A stretch of 64,000 bases of DNA. Source: Cupriavidus necator N-1. Lineage in GTDB: Bacteria; Pseudomonadota; Gammaproteobacteria; Burkholderiales; Burkholderiaceae. Where the stretch lies: positions 434,001 to 498,000 of the forward strand of contig NC_015723.1 in assembly GCF_000219215.1 (NCBI RefSeq), read 5' to 3'. Position numbers and translations under genes: made by a program. The notes below the pieces were generated by a model, which did no database searches, was not told where the DNA came from, and worked only from the letters and a program-made list of their open reading frames with translations. Of the stretch, positions 54,927 through 64,000 are shown one piece after another. How positions within the stretch are numbered: the first letter of the stretch is position 1; every line of letters starts with the position of its first letter.

Positions 54927-55907
54927 CTATTCGGGCTTGATGTTGCCGTCCCGGATGACCTTGGCCCATAGCCGGGTCTGCCCGTCGATGAATTGCCGTG
55001 CCTGTGCTGGCGGCGCAGCCACGACCTCGCCGCCCAGCTCGGCCACGCGTTGCCGGATCTCGGGGCTGGTCATGACTTTCTGCAGGGCGTCAGCGAGCTT
55101 CGCTGCGATCGGGTCCGGCGTTGCGGCGGGCAGGAAAGCCGCGTTCCATTCATAGACCTCGTAGCTCGCCACGCCGGCTTCCTGCATGGTGGGCACGGAC
55201 GGCAATGCCTGGGTGCGGGCATGGCTGGTCACTGCCAGCGGCTTGAGCTTGCCGGCCTTGATGTGCTGCAGGCTCGACGCCACGTTGGCAAAGAACAGCG
55301 GCACCTGGCCGGCGATGACATCGGTCATGGCGGGGCCGCCGCCCTTGTAGGGCACATGCAGTAGGTCGACTCCCGCGCGCTGTTCGAACAGCACGCCCGC
55401 CAGATGCTGCGCCGAGCCATTGCCCGAGGACGCAAAGGCGACCGAGCCTGGCTTTTGCCTGGCCATGGCCATGACGTCGCTGACCTTGCTGGCAGGGAAG
55501 CTCGCCGTGGCCACCAGCACATTGGGATAGCGCGCCAGCACGCCGACCGGCCGGAAGGCCTTGTCCGGATCGTAGGGCAGGCGCGGATAGAGGCTGGGAT
55601 TCACCGCATACGAGGAGGCATCGACCATCATCGTGTAGCCGTCCGGCGCCGCCTTGGCGACATAGGCTGCACCGATCTGCCCACCGGCACCCGGGCGGTT
55701 CTCGACGATCACGGTCTGGCCCAGCTCGCGCCCGAGACCCGGGGCGATCAGCCGTGCCATCAGGTCCGCGCCGCCGCCCGGCGGATACGTCACCACGATC
55801 GTGATGGGGCGTGCCGGCCAGGCCGCGGCGGTGTCGGCGGCCTGCACCAGCGTGGTGGTGGTGATCATGGCAGCGATCGTGGCGGCGATCGCGTGGCGTG
55901 CGTGCAT
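54927..55907 (-). CDS. Bug/TctC-family solute-binding protein
   Basis: 326 residues; CGAGGAGACAGACCC before ATG 55907; the frame stays open upstream but lacks a signal there. Signal MHARHAIAATIAAMITTTTL, cleaved after VQA or VQAA. Family segments: ITIVVTYPPGGGADLMARL, VIVENRPGAGGQIGAAYVA, APDGYTMMVD, LLHVPYKGGGPAMTDVIAG, LPSVPTMQEAG. It begins 26 bp after the GntR stop. Confidence 0.94.
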   Translation of the reverse strand: MHARHAIAATIAAMITTTTLVQAADTAAAWPARPITIVVTYPPGGGADLMARLIAPGLGRELGQTVIVENRPGAGGQIGAAYVAKAAPDGYTMMVDASSYAVNPSLYPRLPYDPDKAFRPVGVLARYPNVLVATASFPASKVSDVMAMARQKPGSVAFASSGNGSAQHLAGVLFEQRAGVDLLHVPYKGGGPAMTDVIAGQVPLFFANVASSLQHIKAGKLKPLAVTSHARTQALPSVPTMQEAGVASYEVYEWNAAFLPAATPDPIAAKLADALQKVMTSPEIRQRVAELGGEVVAAPPAQARQFIDGQTRLWAKVIRDGNIKPE

Positions 55908-55933
55908 GGGTCTGTCTCCTCGGGTGCGGTCCG

Positions 55934-56683
55934 TCAGCGGACGTCCGCGGTATAGCGAAAGGCAAAGGCGTCGCCCCGCGTCAGCCGGTATTCGATGCAG
56001 CTGCCGCCCAGGTCGAAGGCATGCCGGGTCACGACCGCGCACGGGTGCGCATCCGGCAAGTCCAGCAAGGCGGCCTCGTCTGCTGCTAGCGTGCGGAAGG
56101 TCACTTCATCAACGGCGCGATGGACCGTAATGCCGCAGGCGCTGCCCAGCAGCGGGTAGAGCAGGTCGCCCCATTGCACCGGCGGGAGTTGCTGCAGGGC
56201 CTCGCAGCGCGGCAGCGGCAGCCAGATCGATTCCAGCAGCCGGGGCGTGTCATCCAGCCAGCGGCGGCGTGAAATTGCCAGCCCGCGTGCACCCGTCGGC
56301 AGCCCGAAGCGGGTTGCCATGGCCTTGTCCAGGCGCACGGCGCGGCACGACAGGATTTCCGAGCGCGGCACCGCCGGCGCGCCATCGGCGCCGCCGAAGC
56401 GGAAAAACCGCATCAGGCTGGCCCCGCTCAGTCCCTTGCGCACGAAGGTGCCCTTGCCCTGCACGCGCTCCAGCAGGCCCTGCTGGACCAGCACGGCGAT
56501 GGCCTGCCGGATGGTGCCCAGCGCGATGCCGAACTCCTTGGCCAGCGCGCCTTCCGCAGGAATGGCGCTGCCGGGCGCCCACGCGCCCGAAACGATCCTT
56601 GCCTGCAGTTCCGCCGCAATCTGGCCGTAGCGGCTCAGGCCCGCGGCGGTGGTTGTAGTCTGGAACAGCGCGTTGTCTGGCAT
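55934..56683 (-). CDS. GntR-family (HutC/UTRA) transcriptional regulator
   Basis: 249 residues. N-terminal winged HTH: YGQIAAELQARIVSGAWAPG, IPAEGALAKEFGIALGTIRQ, AIAVLVQQGLLERVQGKGTF. C-terminal UTRA ligand domain: AMATRFGLPTGARGLAISRR, ESIWLPLP, AVDEVTFRTLAADEAALLDL and YRLTRGDAFAFRY at the end, typical of the HutC subfamily. Divergent from the amidohydrolase gene; a perfect 14-bp palindrome between them is its likely operator. First gene of the leftward unit with two Bug proteins. Confidence 0.94.
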   Translation of the reverse strand: MPDNALFQTTTTAAGLSRYGQIAAELQARIVSGAWAPGSAIPAEGALAKEFGIALGTIRQAIAVLVQQGLLERVQGKGTFVRKGLSGASLMRFFRFGGADGAPAVPRSEILSCRAVRLDKAMATRFGLPTGARGLAISRRRWLDDTPRLLESIWLPLPRCEALQQLPPVQWGDLLYPLLGSACGITVHRAVDEVTFRTLAADEAALLDLPDAHPCAVVTRHAFDLGGSCIEYRLTRGDAFAFRYTADVR

Positions 56684-59728: not shown

Positions 59729-60424
59729 CTATTTGCGAGCCTTGCCGCGCGCGCTCTTTTTGGCCGCGGCGGCGCGCGCCGCTTCTTTCTCGGCCGCCGC
59801 CGCTGCGCCCAACTGCTCCAGCCAGGACATGCCCTCGACATAGGACAGGAAATGCCGCAGGTATTCCGGCGAGGTCTCGCGCATCAGCGACAGCGAACGA
59901 TGCACGAGATGGTCGGTATTGAGCGGCCCGGCATTCTCCGGCACGCGTTCCAGCGACAGGCGGAAGTGCTGCTCGACGCTGACCCTGGCCCAGGTTTCGC
60001 GGAAGTAGTCGGCCAGGGCATCGACCAGCGGCGCGTTGGACTGGGGGGCGTGTGCCGGCACCGGCGCGGGCGACCGTGCATCGTTCGAGGCGACCGCGAC
60101 GGCGGGCCTGGCGCGCGCGGTGATGTCGTGCACGAGTGCGCCAAGCGCGCTGGCTGTCGGGCTGGACGTTGGCGTGGACGGCGCGCCACCATCGGCAATA
60201 TCGCTATCGTTGCCTGTGTACCGCTGCACGATGGCTGCATACGCGGCGGCCAGACCTCGCAGGCGCTCATCCAGCAGGCCCCGCACCGCGCCACTGTGTC
60301 CGGCGCAGCGACGGGCCAGCGCCTCCATCAGGCGGAAGCGCACGGGATCGGCCTGGTCGGCGCCGCTGGCCTGCCAGGCGTCCAGTTGCGCGCGGATATC
60401 GGCTGCCACGTCGAGGCTAGCCAT
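59729..60424 (-). CDS. DUF2894 protein of the DUF802/OmpA cluster
   Basis: 231 residues; its start overlaps the ompA-like gene by 8 bp. Matches DUF2894: DPVRFRLMEALARRCAGHSG, PLVDALADYFRETWARVSVE and the C-terminal LNTDHLVHRSLSLMRETSPE with YLRHFLSYVEGMSWLEQL. A low-complexity middle (residues 75-125) and a basic Ala/Lys tail (AAAKKSARGKARK) frame these. No signal or membrane helix, so it is cytoplasmic. Function unknown; always to be viewed with its two upstream partners. Confidence 0.88.
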   Translation of the reverse strand: MASLDVAADIRAQLDAWQASGADQADPVRFRLMEALARRCAGHSGAVRGLLDERLRGLAAAYAAIVQRYTGNDSDIADGGAPSTPTSSPTASALGALVHDITARARPAVAVASNDARSPAPVPAHAPQSNAPLVDALADYFRETWARVSVEQHFRLSLERVPENAGPLNTDHLVHRSLSLMRETSPEYLRHFLSYVEGMSWLEQLGAAAAAEKEAARAAAAKKSARGKARK

Positions 60425-61064
60425 GCGGCTTCACCGTGCCCGCGGTCACGCGCGGCACCGGCGAGATCTCCACGCGCCGGTTCTTCGCGCGGCCCTCGGC
60501 ATCGGCATTCGGTGTCACAGGCTGCTGCGAACCGAAGGCGGCCGAGAACACCGAGGTGGGCGGGATGCCGGCATCGATCAGGGTGCGGGTCACGGTCAGC
60601 GCGCGCTGCGCCGACAGCTCCCAGTTGTCGGCAAAGCGGCGATTGCCTTCGCGCACCTGCTGGTCGTCGGTAAAGCCGCTCACCATCAGGATCTCGTCGC
60701 GGCTGCGCAGGTAGGCTGACAACGGTTGCGCCAGGCTTTTCAGCAGATCGCGGCCGTCAGGTTGCAGCTGGTCTGAGTTGAGCGCAAACAGCACGTTGCC
60801 GCTGATGCCGATGCGCCCGTTCACCAGCGTCACGCGGCCGGCCGCCAGCGGCCCCGCCAGCGCCTTTTCCAGCGTCTCGCGGCGCTGTGCTTCCTCCTGC
60901 CGCTGCTTCACCTCGGCTTCCAGCCTGGCCGACAGTTCCATCTGCACGCCGATGACCCCCAGCAGGACCAGCACGAACGCGCCCAGCAGGACCGACATCA
61001 GGTCGCCAAAGACCGCCCACGCGGGAACGGTCGGCTCAACGCCGGCGTCAAGGTCCTCTCTCAT
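60417..61064 (-). CDS. MotB/ZorB-like OmpA-family protein
   Basis: 215 residues; the ATG overlaps the DUF802 stop by 4 bp. One N-terminal membrane helix, PAWAVFGDLMSVLLGAFVLVL, with an Asp at its start in the position of the ion-binding Asp of MotB, TolR and ZorB. A short coiled coil (about 45-75) leads to an OmpA-C peptidoglycan-binding domain: GNVLFALNSDQLQPDGRDLL, VSGFTDDQQVREGNRRFADN, AFGSQQPVTPNADAEGRAKN and RRVEISP. Thus it is the stator-anchor type partner of the MotA-like DUF802 protein. Confidence 0.9.
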   Translation of the reverse strand: MREDLDAGVEPTVPAWAVFGDLMSVLLGAFVLVLLGVIGVQMELSARLEAEVKQRQEEAQRRETLEKALAGPLAAGRVTLVNGRIGISGNVLFALNSDQLQPDGRDLLKSLAQPLSAYLRSRDEILMVSGFTDDQQVREGNRRFADNWELSAQRALTVTRTLIDAGIPPTSVFSAAFGSQQPVTPNADAEGRAKNRRVEISPVPRVTAGTVKPHG

Positions 61065-64000
61065 GCCGCCTCTGCGCTGGGCGCTTGCTGGCCGGCGCGC
61101 TGCTGCAGGTCCTCAAGGATCTGCTTTTGCGACAGCATGCTCAGGTCGACGACTTCGCGCGCCTGCGCCACGTAGTAGGCCAGTTGCTCGTCGCTGCGCG
61201 TCATCGACTTGTCCAGCGCGACCTCGATGCGCTGCAGGTGGTCGATCAGCTTGCCGTTGGATTCGCTGAACAGCTGCACCGCCACGCCAAAGGCCTCGCC
61301 CAGGCTCGCGACTTCGACCGCGCTGCCGGTGACCTGCGAGGCGATGTCGGTGAGCTTGCCGGTTTCGGATTCGACCTTGTCGGTAAAGCGCGTGCCGACG
61401 CGGTCCAGCAGGTCCGCCGTGGTGGCGACCAGGGTGTCGACCACGCTGCGCTGCTCAGTGGAGGCATGATTCACGGCATCGAGCAGCGTGCCCAGCGTTT
61501 CCAGCATGCGGCTGCGTTCTTCCAGCATGGCGTTGTCGCGCGCCATGCCGTCGGTGAGCTTTTCGCGCAGTTCCGCGATGACCTCCGCGGCGGCCTTGGG
61601 CGCTTCGGATGCGGCCTGCATCAGGTGGGCAACTTCGGCGATGGTGCCGGTGGCCTGGGCCTGCGCCTGGGCTGCCATGTCGCGCGCGGTGACGGCCAGC
61701 GTCTCGCAGATTTCCTGCTGGCGGCTGACGGTGTGTGCGCTGGCCTGTTCCCATTCCTGGCGCAGCGATGCGGCCATGGTGCCGAGCGTATCGGTCCAGG
61801 CAGCCATGCGTTGCGCGTCCTGCGATGCCAGTTCCGCCTGCAATGTGGTGGCGGCCTTGGGTGCCTCGGCCGCAGCTTGCACCAGGCGGTCGATTTCGGC
61901 GAGGGTGGTGCTGGCATGCGCCTGCGTCTCGGTCGAGATCGCGCGCGCGGTCTGCGCCAGCGCCTCGCAGATCTCCTGCTGGCGGGTGGCGGCGTGCGTG
62001 CTGGCCTGTTCCCACTGCTGGCGCAGCGTGGCGGCGATGGTGCCGAGCGTATCGGTCCAGCTGGCAAAGCGCTGTTCATCGCGCGCAGCCAGCTCGGCCT
62101 GCAGCGCAACGGCCGCCTTCGGGGCGTCCGTTGCAGCCTGCACCAGACGGTCGATCTCAGCGAGGGTGCGACTGGCATGCGCCTGGGTCTGGGTCGAGAT
62201 GTCGCGCACGCTCTGCGCCAGCGTCGTGCTGATCTCGTCCTGGCGGCTTACCGTATGCGCGTTCAGCTGTTCCCACTCCTGGCGCAACGCGGCCGTCATA
62301 GTGCCGAGCGTATCGGTCCAGGCGGCGAAGCGCTGTGCATCGCGCGAAGCCAGTTCCGCCTGCAGCGCGACGGCCGCCTTCGGCGCGTCCGACGCGGCTT
62401 GCACCAGGCGGTCGATTTCCGCGAGGGTCTGGCTGGCATGCGCCTGGGTCTGGGCCGAGATCTCGCGCACGCTCTGCGCCAGCGTCGTGCTGATCTCGTC
62501 CTGGCGGCTTACCGTATGCGCGTTCAGTTGCTCCCACTCCTGCCGCAACGCGGCCGTCATGGTGCCGAGCGTGTCGGTCCAGGCGGCGAAGCGCTGTGCA
62601 TCGCGCGAAGCCAGTTCCGCCTGCAGCGCGACGGCCGCCTTCGGCGCGTCCGAAGCGGCTTGCACCAGGCGGTCGATCTCCGCAAGGGTCTGGCTGGCAT
62701 GCGCCTGGGTCTGGGCCGAGATCTCGCGCACGCTCTGCGCCAGCGTCGTGCTGATTTCGTCCTGGCGGCTTACCGTGTGGGCGTTCAGTTGCTCCAACTC
62801 CTGGCGCAAGCCAGCCGTCATGGTGCCGAGAGTATCGGCCCAGGCCGACAGGCGCTGCGCGTCGTGCGCGGCCAGTTGCGTCTGCAGCCCGGCATGCGAC
62901 TCGCCCACGGTGCGCACCAGTGTCGCAGCCTGTTCGCCGATCGCGACCGCGGCGGCCGTCAGGGCCTGCTGGTTGTCGCTGGCGAGCTTCTCGCCGGTAC
63001 GCTCCTGGCGCGACAGCGCCTCGCGCCATGCGTCGGCAGCGCTGGCGGCAGCCGTGTCGAGACGGGTGGCGACACCGTCCAGCAGCCCGGCCGAACGTTG
63101 TTCGAAGGTCTGGGCAAAGCCGTCGAGGGACGTGCGCAGGTCCGCTGCCAGTGCCTCGCTCGCGCGTTGATGCCCGGCCAGCGCCTGGTTCCACGTATCC
63201 GCGACGCCCGCGGTGGCGCTCTCGAAGCGGCTCGATACCCCATCCAGATGCTGTTGCACGGCGTGGGTCACGGTGTCGCGCAAGGCCGTGGTTTCGCGTG
63301 CCAGGCCCGCCATGGTCGCGTCCACCGCAGGCTGGATCGCTGCGCTTGAGGCGCGGGCGCTGTCGGCAATGCTGTCCTTCAGCGATTGCTCCACCGAAGA
63401 CGCCAGGCGCGTGTAGACCACTTCGGTCTTGCCGTGGAAGGCGTCCTGGCTGGCGGCCAGGCGCTCGGTCAGGGCCTGGTTCTGTTCCGCCATCGTGGTC
63501 ATCATGGCCTGCATGCGCTCGACCAGTGCCGGCATCACGTCGGCTTGGCGCTGCAGCAGCCGGAACGCTTCATCACGCTGGTGGCCGCGCGAGTAGGGGC
63601 GCAGCGTGGTGGCGATGCGGGCGTCCAGCGCCTGCGCGGCCTGGATCCGCTCGCCCCGGCACAATGCCGACAACAGCCCCAGCATCGCGGACGTGGCCAC
63701 GCCCGCGACCGAGGTGCCGAACGCAAAGCCCAGGCCCTTGACCGGTGCGGCCAGCGAGGCGCGGATGGCCTGCAGGTCGGTGGCGGTCTCCAGCGCGATG
63801 CCGGTGCCGCGCAGGGTCGCCACCATGCCCAGGAACGTGCCCAGCATGCCCAGCAGCACCAGCAGCCCGACCAGGTAGGGTGTCAGCGCGGGGCCGGGCA
63901 GGCCGACGCGCTCGCCTTCCACGCGCAGGCGGGCGCTGTCGCGCAGGCTGGGATGCAGCCGTTCCAGCCAGCTGCCAAGGCTGGCCGGCGCTTCGGACAG
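61061..64000 (-). CDS. DUF802 MotA/ZorA-like protein with giant repeat tail, N-terminus outside window
   Basis: The frame is open to the window edge (980 codons to the stop at 61061), so the start is missing. Two membrane helices: TPYLVGLLVLLGMLGTFLGM, carrying the GLLGTFLGMV-like motif of MotA/TolQ/ExbB channels, and GLGFAFGTSVAGVATSAMLG. A cytoplasmic tail of about 850 residues is helical and coiled-coil-like and contains five copies of an 87-residue repeat (61582-62886). The end, SMLSQKQILEDLQQRAGQQA, is typical of DUF802. With the MotB-like partner it should form an ion-driven inner-membrane complex with a long intracellular tail. Confidence 0.88.
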   Translation of the reverse strand: MSEAPASLGSWLERLHPSLRDSARLRVEGERVGLPGPALTPYLVGLLVLLGMLGTFLGMVATLRGTGIALETATDLQAIRASLAAPVKGLGFAFGTSVAGVATSAMLGLLSALCRGERIQAAQALDARIATTLRPYSRGHQRDEAFRLLQRQADVMPALVERMQAMMTTMAEQNQALTERLAASQDAFHGKTEVVYTRLASSVEQSLKDSIADSARASSAAIQPAVDATMAGLARETTALRDTVTHAVQQHLDGVSSRFESATAGVADTWNQALAGHQRASEALAADLRTSLDGFAQTFEQRSAGLLDGVATRLDTAAASAADAWREALSRQERTGEKLASDNQQALTAAAVAIGEQAATLVRTVGESHAGLQTQLAAHDAQRLSAWADTLGTMTAGLRQELEQLNAHTVSRQDEISTTLAQSVREISAQTQAHASQTLAEIDRLVQAASDAPKAAVALQAELASRDAQRFAAWTDTLGTMTAALRQEWEQLNAHTVSRQDEISTTLAQSVREISAQTQAHASQTLAEIDRLVQAASDAPKAAVALQAELASRDAQRFAAWTDTLGTMTAALRQEWEQLNAHTVSRQDEISTTLAQSVRDISTQTQAHASRTLAEIDRLVQAATDAPKAAVALQAELAARDEQRFASWTDTLGTIAATLRQQWEQASTHAATRQQEICEALAQTARAISTETQAHASTTLAEIDRLVQAAAEAPKAATTLQAELASQDAQRMAAWTDTLGTMAASLRQEWEQASAHTVSRQQEICETLAVTARDMAAQAQAQATGTIAEVAHLMQAASEAPKAAAEVIAELREKLTDGMARDNAMLEERSRMLETLGTLLDAVNHASTEQRSVVDTLVATTADLLDRVGTRFTDKVESETGKLTDIASQVTGSAVEVASLGEAFGVAVQLFSESNGKLIDHLQRIEVALDKSMTRSDEQLAYYVAQAREVVDLSMLSQKQILEDLQQRAGQQAPSAEAA
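61582..62886 (-). repeat. Five tandem 261-bp repeats in the DUF802 gene
   Basis: The marker GTGCCGAG recurs near 61779, 62040, 62301, 62562 and 62823, exactly 261 bp apart. Each unit encodes 87 residues with the pattern DAQR-AAWTDTLGTM, LRQEWEQ, HTVSRQ-EI, QTQAHAS-TLAEIDRLVQA, APKAA. The central copies are almost identical in DNA, the outer ones have diverged, so the central copies duplicated recently. Confidence 0.95.

Follow-up and report, generated by a model that had tools for sequence, protein, structure and literature searches.

A predicted Zorya type III motor operon in Cupriavidus necator N-1 and its distribution in Burkholderiaceae

The end of a 64,000-nucleotide stretch of the Cupriavidus necator N-1 genome (bases 434001-498000 of contig C1; hereafter, the window) almost certainly belongs to a complete Zorya type III operon, zorG3(DUF3348)-zorA3-zorB3-zorF3(DUF2894), that is cut by the window end. 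The genome comprises 8.48 Mb on four contigs. The assignment follows from the matches of all four predicted proteins to PADLOC models, i.e., ZorA3 to PDLC00650 (E = 0, 1499 bits), ZorB3 to PDLC00651 (2.1e-116), ZorF3 to PDLC00652 (5.8e-74) and ZorG3 to PDLC00656 (9.6e-96); the PADLOC models for Zorya types I and II gave far weaker matches. Given that Zorya type III is already known, the locus is an ordinary copy of a described anti-phage system.

Inspection of the open reading frames of the window showed that zorA, zorB and zorF are co-directional on the minus strand. zorF3 (59729..60424) encodes a DUF2894 protein of 231 amino acids (aa) predicted to be all-helical, and overlaps by 8 bp (60417-60424) with zorB3 (60417..61064), which encodes a MotB-type subunit of 215 aa with a transmembrane helix carrying the ion-site Asp (D21) and a periplasmic OmpA-type domain. 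zorB3 in turn overlaps by 4 bp (61061-61064) with zorA3 (61061..64000), the gene for a DUF802 protein of 1045 aa in all, whose four transmembrane helices were assigned by eye and whose cytoplasmic tail is long. In the whole-genome sequence zorA starts at about window position 64198, so that the first 66 ZorA residues, with the first two transmembrane helices (by eye), lie outside the window. Pfam supported the three domains well above cut-offs (DUF802 at 1.7e-30 in two stretches, OmpA at 7.4e-18, and DUF2894, PF11445, at 1.6e-68). Three overlapping genes of this kind, with a ZorA/ZorB plan, a MotB-type helix holding the key Asp in GDLMSVLL and a very long DUF802 tail, had been described in a first-pass annotation made from the sequence alone, and each of these points is borne out here. 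The same annotation had expected a DUF3348 gene in the next few kb; it lies just beyond the window end at 64209-64949, 10 bp upstream of zorA, and its product matches PF11828 at 7.3e-99.

The arrangement recurs among relatives. The order G-A-B-F, read from the match positions, was found in the 66 of 68 sampled operons for which BLAST detected all four genes; of the two others, one ends at a contig end, and in one ZorF was missed by BLAST and recovered by the DUF2894 profile. ZorF sits beside ZorB in all 80 named loci, and ZorG was found in 75 of these, the retrieved stretch beginning inside zorA in the five loci without it.

Zorya type III was named in 2021 by Payne et al., whose text, in the sections available, reports 6,401 cases of a Zorya gene pair (printed zorBC) with flanking DUF3348 and DUF2894 genes, and whose discussion gives the type III genes as ZorA, ZorB, ZorF and ZorG (PMC8565338). 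The locus studied here is alike in all four genes, with no qualitative difference from the system as described there. The names of the accessory proteins are swapped between sources, DUF3348 being ZorF and DUF2894 ZorG in the 2021 text and the reverse in PADLOC-DB 2.0.0. The first-pass annotation had taken DUF2894 to stand in place of ZorC/D/E and suggested that the motor was perhaps undescribed. This part did not survive, as type III has been defined in print by just this combination of a Zorya core, DUF2894 and DUF3348 (PMC8565338, PMC11890865) and dedicated PADLOC models match all four proteins. An undescribed motor system was therefore rejected and retains next to no probability, even if DUF2894 and DUF3348 proteins are called no more than 'proposed regulators' (PMC8565338) and a search with type III terms returned, in the article sections available, neither another function for them nor mechanistic work.

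The residues expected of an ion-driven motor are invariant in the operon family. D21 of ZorB was conserved in 148/148 scored rows (135 distinct), and T121, T162, S163 and S170 of the ZorA head in 145/145 scored rows, four short fragments being left out of the latter scoring. In the available text on Zorya types I and II, these are 5:2 motors for which the tail, the Asp and the binding of peptidoglycan are all required (PMC11890865). The type III operon shares with them the ZorA/ZorB core, the transmembrane Asp of ZorB, the OmpA-type domain, the long ZorA tail and the Ser/Thr residues in the transmembrane helices of ZorA (PMC11890865). In a 5:2 ion-driven motor, ions would flow through the transmembrane Asp and a ring of polar residues, positions that do not vary here. 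Types I and II differ in having ZorC/D/E, none of which was found among the nine neighbouring proteins scanned here, whereas the accessory proteins of type III are predicted to be helical and have no recognised fold. They also differ in size variation: within each of types I and II the components are reported to keep much the same size (PMC11890865), in contrast to a type III tail core of 260-860 aa.

We also considered a flagellar or Tol/Ton-like stator set. ZorB shares with MotB and PomB the combination of a transmembrane Asp and an OmpA-type domain, and this domain matches structures of MotB, PomB and the Pal type. Judged by its family, it probably binds peptidoglycan. However, the best NCBIfam match of ZorB was PRK09040 (392 bits, cut-off 194), with 90 bits against a cut-off of 283 for the MotD model, and the listed MotB and MotS models were also far below their cut-offs. 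The NCBIfam matches of ZorA were ZorA models (below cut-offs) and one aminotransferase family, with none to MotA, ExbB or TolQ, and its PADLOC matches were ZorA models. MotAB and PomAB stators differ further from type III, which has the very long ZorA tail and the DUF2894 and DUF3348 partners. A stator set was thus rejected as very improbable.

No enzymatic component was recognised in the two accessory proteins. The structural model of ZorF from the window was all-helical (mean predicted local distance difference test, pLDDT, 73.7; predicted template modelling score, pTM, 0.41), as was that of ZorG from the relative in locus L019 (mean pLDDT 76.7, pTM 0.73). Neither model had a Foldseek match at E ≤ 0.001, neither sequence matched the PDB at E ≤ 0.1, and no Pfam family other than DUF2894 and DUF3348 was detected; no nuclease, helicase or other effector is thus recognised in the operon. 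An enzymatic effector hidden in DUF2894 or DUF3348 accordingly found no support from Pfam, PDB sequences or PDB folds, although the models are too weak to exclude it.

Overall, a Zorya type III motor is the likely explanation of the locus. By extension from the solved type I and II complexes, five ZorA would surround two ZorB to form an ion-driven rotor. Once a phage disturbs the wall, the OmpA domain of ZorB would grip the peptidoglycan, ions would flow, and the ZorA ring would rotate with its bundled tail; this tail would be about 100 nm long if its 677-residue core is one helix. ZorF and ZorG, predicted to be helical and not enzyme-like, may dock on the tail or gate it, a less well supported step. 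As the operon has no recognised nuclease or helicase, the motor itself, through ion flow or growth arrest, might provide protection, or a host protein recruited to the tail might do so. We favour a reading in which ZorF and ZorG bind the tail as regulators while the motor, or a host protein, carries out the protective act, at a probability that we place somewhat below even.

Experimental evidence on type III comes from other hosts. A Stenotrophomonas nitritireducens type III operon was cloned and lowered plaquing in Escherichia coli (PMC8565338). In the available text of that study, all three systems tested reduced plaque formation in E. coli for one phage or more, and cultures carrying them did not collapse with PVP-SE1 at a multiplicity of infection below 0.1 (PMC8565338). 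During phage infection of Burkholderia cenocepacia K56-2, significant changes in expression are reported for the first gene, or the first two genes, of its predicted Zorya I and Zorya III operons. For a Variovorax strain, Zorya type III is named as a prediction only, and in the literature sections available we found no deletion phenotype of a type III operon in its native host.

Several observations weigh against the motor explanation. The phage assays found in the available literature concern one type III operon, from another genus and expressed from a plasmid. ZorA had no sequence match among solved motor chains, its only hit at E ≤ 1 being a coil-like match to apolipoprotein A-IV, and the 5:2 assembly would here be carried over from types I and II rather than read from a model of the complex. 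The ZorF and ZorG models are weak to moderate. Moreover, the near-fixed presence of the operon and its ordinary neighbours, both detailed below, are unlike those of a typical phage-defence gene.

The genomic context gave no indication of a defence island, which was rejected: among 98 neighbours at 25 loci, drawn from 292 candidates at 73 loci and possibly including some false reading frames, there was no convincing defence gene, and the only matches at E ≤ 1e-10 were GlgB-like (2) and Csa3-like (1). The scanned neighbours were metabolic and regulatory. At the locus itself, nine neighbouring proteins had no PADLOC match at 1e-5, including to ZorC/D/E; the ZorC family was absent from this genome (G000), while ZorD and ZorE were not sought genome-wide. 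No flanking cluster was shared by more than 15 of 80 loci. The most widespread of this genome's neighbours in BLAST searches were TctC-type receptors (17/80 loci), which form a large paralogous family, and a shared neighbourhood was likewise rejected.

The operon is close to fixed in large-genome Burkholderiaceae. DUF2894, DUF3348 and a high-scoring ZorB3 were found together in 51 of 60 Cupriavidus genomes, and the same nine lacked all three. Restricting the set to good Cupriavidus genomes, 47 of 54 carried the operon marker, which falls short of the strict presence in all relatives that the first-pass annotation, together with a housekeeping phenotype only, had set against its own idea. Across Burkholderiaceae, DUF3348 was present in 137 of 200 genomes, and ZorC in 14 of 200 genomes drawn with identical settings. 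The ZorC family, EH_Signature, is what we take to be a Zorya I marker. Many of the listed genomes without DUF3348 are small; among those of at least 5.0 Mb it was present in 127 of 135 with listed sizes, or 127 of 154 in the worst case, which adds 19 DUF3348-less genomes without a listed size. The operon is nearly always single-copy. Further afield the family becomes scarcer: at the level of the order, 21 of 299 genomes had DUF2894, and at that of the phylum 26 of 396, a figure that counts two genomes with matches below the family cut-off.

Such a distribution is what could be expected of a resident envelope motor with a housekeeping task, e.g., wall sensing or repair, that affects phages only as a side effect of being over-expressed. 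This alternative is favoured by the frequency of DUF3348 relative to ZorC, the single copy, the metabolic and regulatory neighbours, and the grouping of the 12 Cupriavidus operons as one clade (support 96). On the other hand, the genomes without the operon lie amid carriers, which indicates that it is dispensable, and with no common flanking cluster no partner pathway is evident. The exchange suggested by conflict with rpoB outside Cupriavidus, the phage protection by one type III operon (PMC8565338) and the transcriptional response to infection of one operon in B. cenocepacia also speak against it, and we regard it as unlikely.

Ten non-carriers were placed in an rpoB tree, where eight fell inside or beside carrier groups (three of these in Cupriavidus), the pattern that secondary loss would leave; G719 and G726, the remaining two, formed a weakly supported branch of their own. 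The operon is thus usually kept and can be lost. Purely vertical descent was rejected, because the operon tree conflicts with rpoB outside Cupriavidus. Over 40 genomes, 13 of 37 splits were common to the rpoB DNA tree and a tree of ZorG, the ZorA head and ZorB; of the 21 strong splits in the latter, 4 were in conflict. Cupriavidus (12 genomes) formed one clade in both of these trees, but not in the rpoB protein tree. Among the eight other genera with at least two members, only g358 and g346 were clades in the operon tree; the rpoB DNA tree recovered seven of the eight as clades, and the rpoB protein tree six. Judging from these trees, the operon has probably moved between lineages outside Cupriavidus. 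Carriage by phages was rejected, DUF2894 being found in none of 50,697 phage records, a search that did not extend to ZorA, ZorB or ZorG. Carriage by plasmids was rejected as well; ZorB matched 27 plasmid records at E ≤ 1e-40 (20 predicted non-mobilizable and 7 mobilizable), most of which we read as chromids or megaplasmids from their sizes (366 kb to 3.5 Mb).

The length of the ZorA tail often varies in whole modules. Within zorA3, a tandem repeat of 261 bp (87 aa) occurs in five copies with 84% matches at 61588..62888 on the minus strand, and forms part of the tail coil (about residues 437-870). The comparison covered 141 tails (nine being exact duplicates because two source sets of loci overlap) after seven of 148 rows had been dropped: five were shorter than 600 aa, one matched poorly at the C-terminus and one lacked an anchor. 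In 107 non-redundant tails, self-similarity peaked at lags of 87, 55, 22, 33 and 29 residues, and hydrophobicity had a period of 3.665 residues, pointing to an 11-residue (hendecad) coil. Measured between two conserved anchors, the tail core spans 260-860 residues across relatives and 677 in this operon. The last value is one of the 87-step rungs (329, 416, 503, 590, 677, 764 and 851), on which 67 of 141 tails fall (63 of 132 distinct; 48 of 107 non-redundant); a 29-aa ladder holds 76 of 141 (71 of 132; 54 of 107). The 29-aa period was chosen after the lengths were seen, whereas the 87-aa period came independently from the tandem repeat in the window.

Among periods of 20-120, the fullest residue class was most enriched at 87 (48/107, uncorrected for shared ancestry), and five of the seven rungs are each represented in at least two named genera. 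Every one of the 17 tails with an identity of 35% or more at lag 87 was on a rung, vs 31 of the other 90. In these 90, lag 87 was not among the twelve best lags, which makes the visible 87-aa repeat a minority feature. The Rayleigh value on distinct lengths was low (0.243 at 29), and a strict 87-aa ladder was rejected, with more than half of the non-redundant tails off it. The tail may thus grow and shrink by whole modules that preserve the helix register. Natural variants often differ by whole modules, giving a direct handle on the role of the ZorA tail.

More tentatively, and with a probability well short of even, type III could be a wall-sensing motor resident in Burkholderiaceae and related lineages, present in nearly every large genome, and not a mobile defence cassette. 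Its rod length would evolve by 87-residue modules (about 13 nm) that preserve register. Anti-phage protection would be one output and, as no effector can be recognised in the operon, would be exerted through the motor or a host partner. In the literature sections available, we did not meet the quasi-fixed presence in large-genome Burkholderiaceae, the 87-aa tail steps or the lack of defence-gene neighbours in the scanned loci. A 'defence system' with 6,401 cases that is near fixed in the large-genome members of one family may inflate defence counts or indicate a second, everyday role.

A plus-strand open frame of 754 aa (61085-63349) runs antisense to the zorA repeats; we read it as a shadow or artefact of the GC-rich repeats rather than as evidence of a gene. 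DUF3348 is split across two frames in genome G052 (contig C87; assembly 86% complete), and the zorA frame looks interrupted in loci L025 and L077, cases described as frameshifts or assembly errors. A DUF2894 match above cut-off also occurs in the control genome Corynebacterium glutamicum, which is distant from the usual hosts. By eye, a number of tripartite-tricarboxylate (TctC/Bug-type) receptor genes, each with a regulator gene nearby, are located no more than about 25 kb from the operon (window 54927-56042; locus L008 4572-5549 and 10662-12089).

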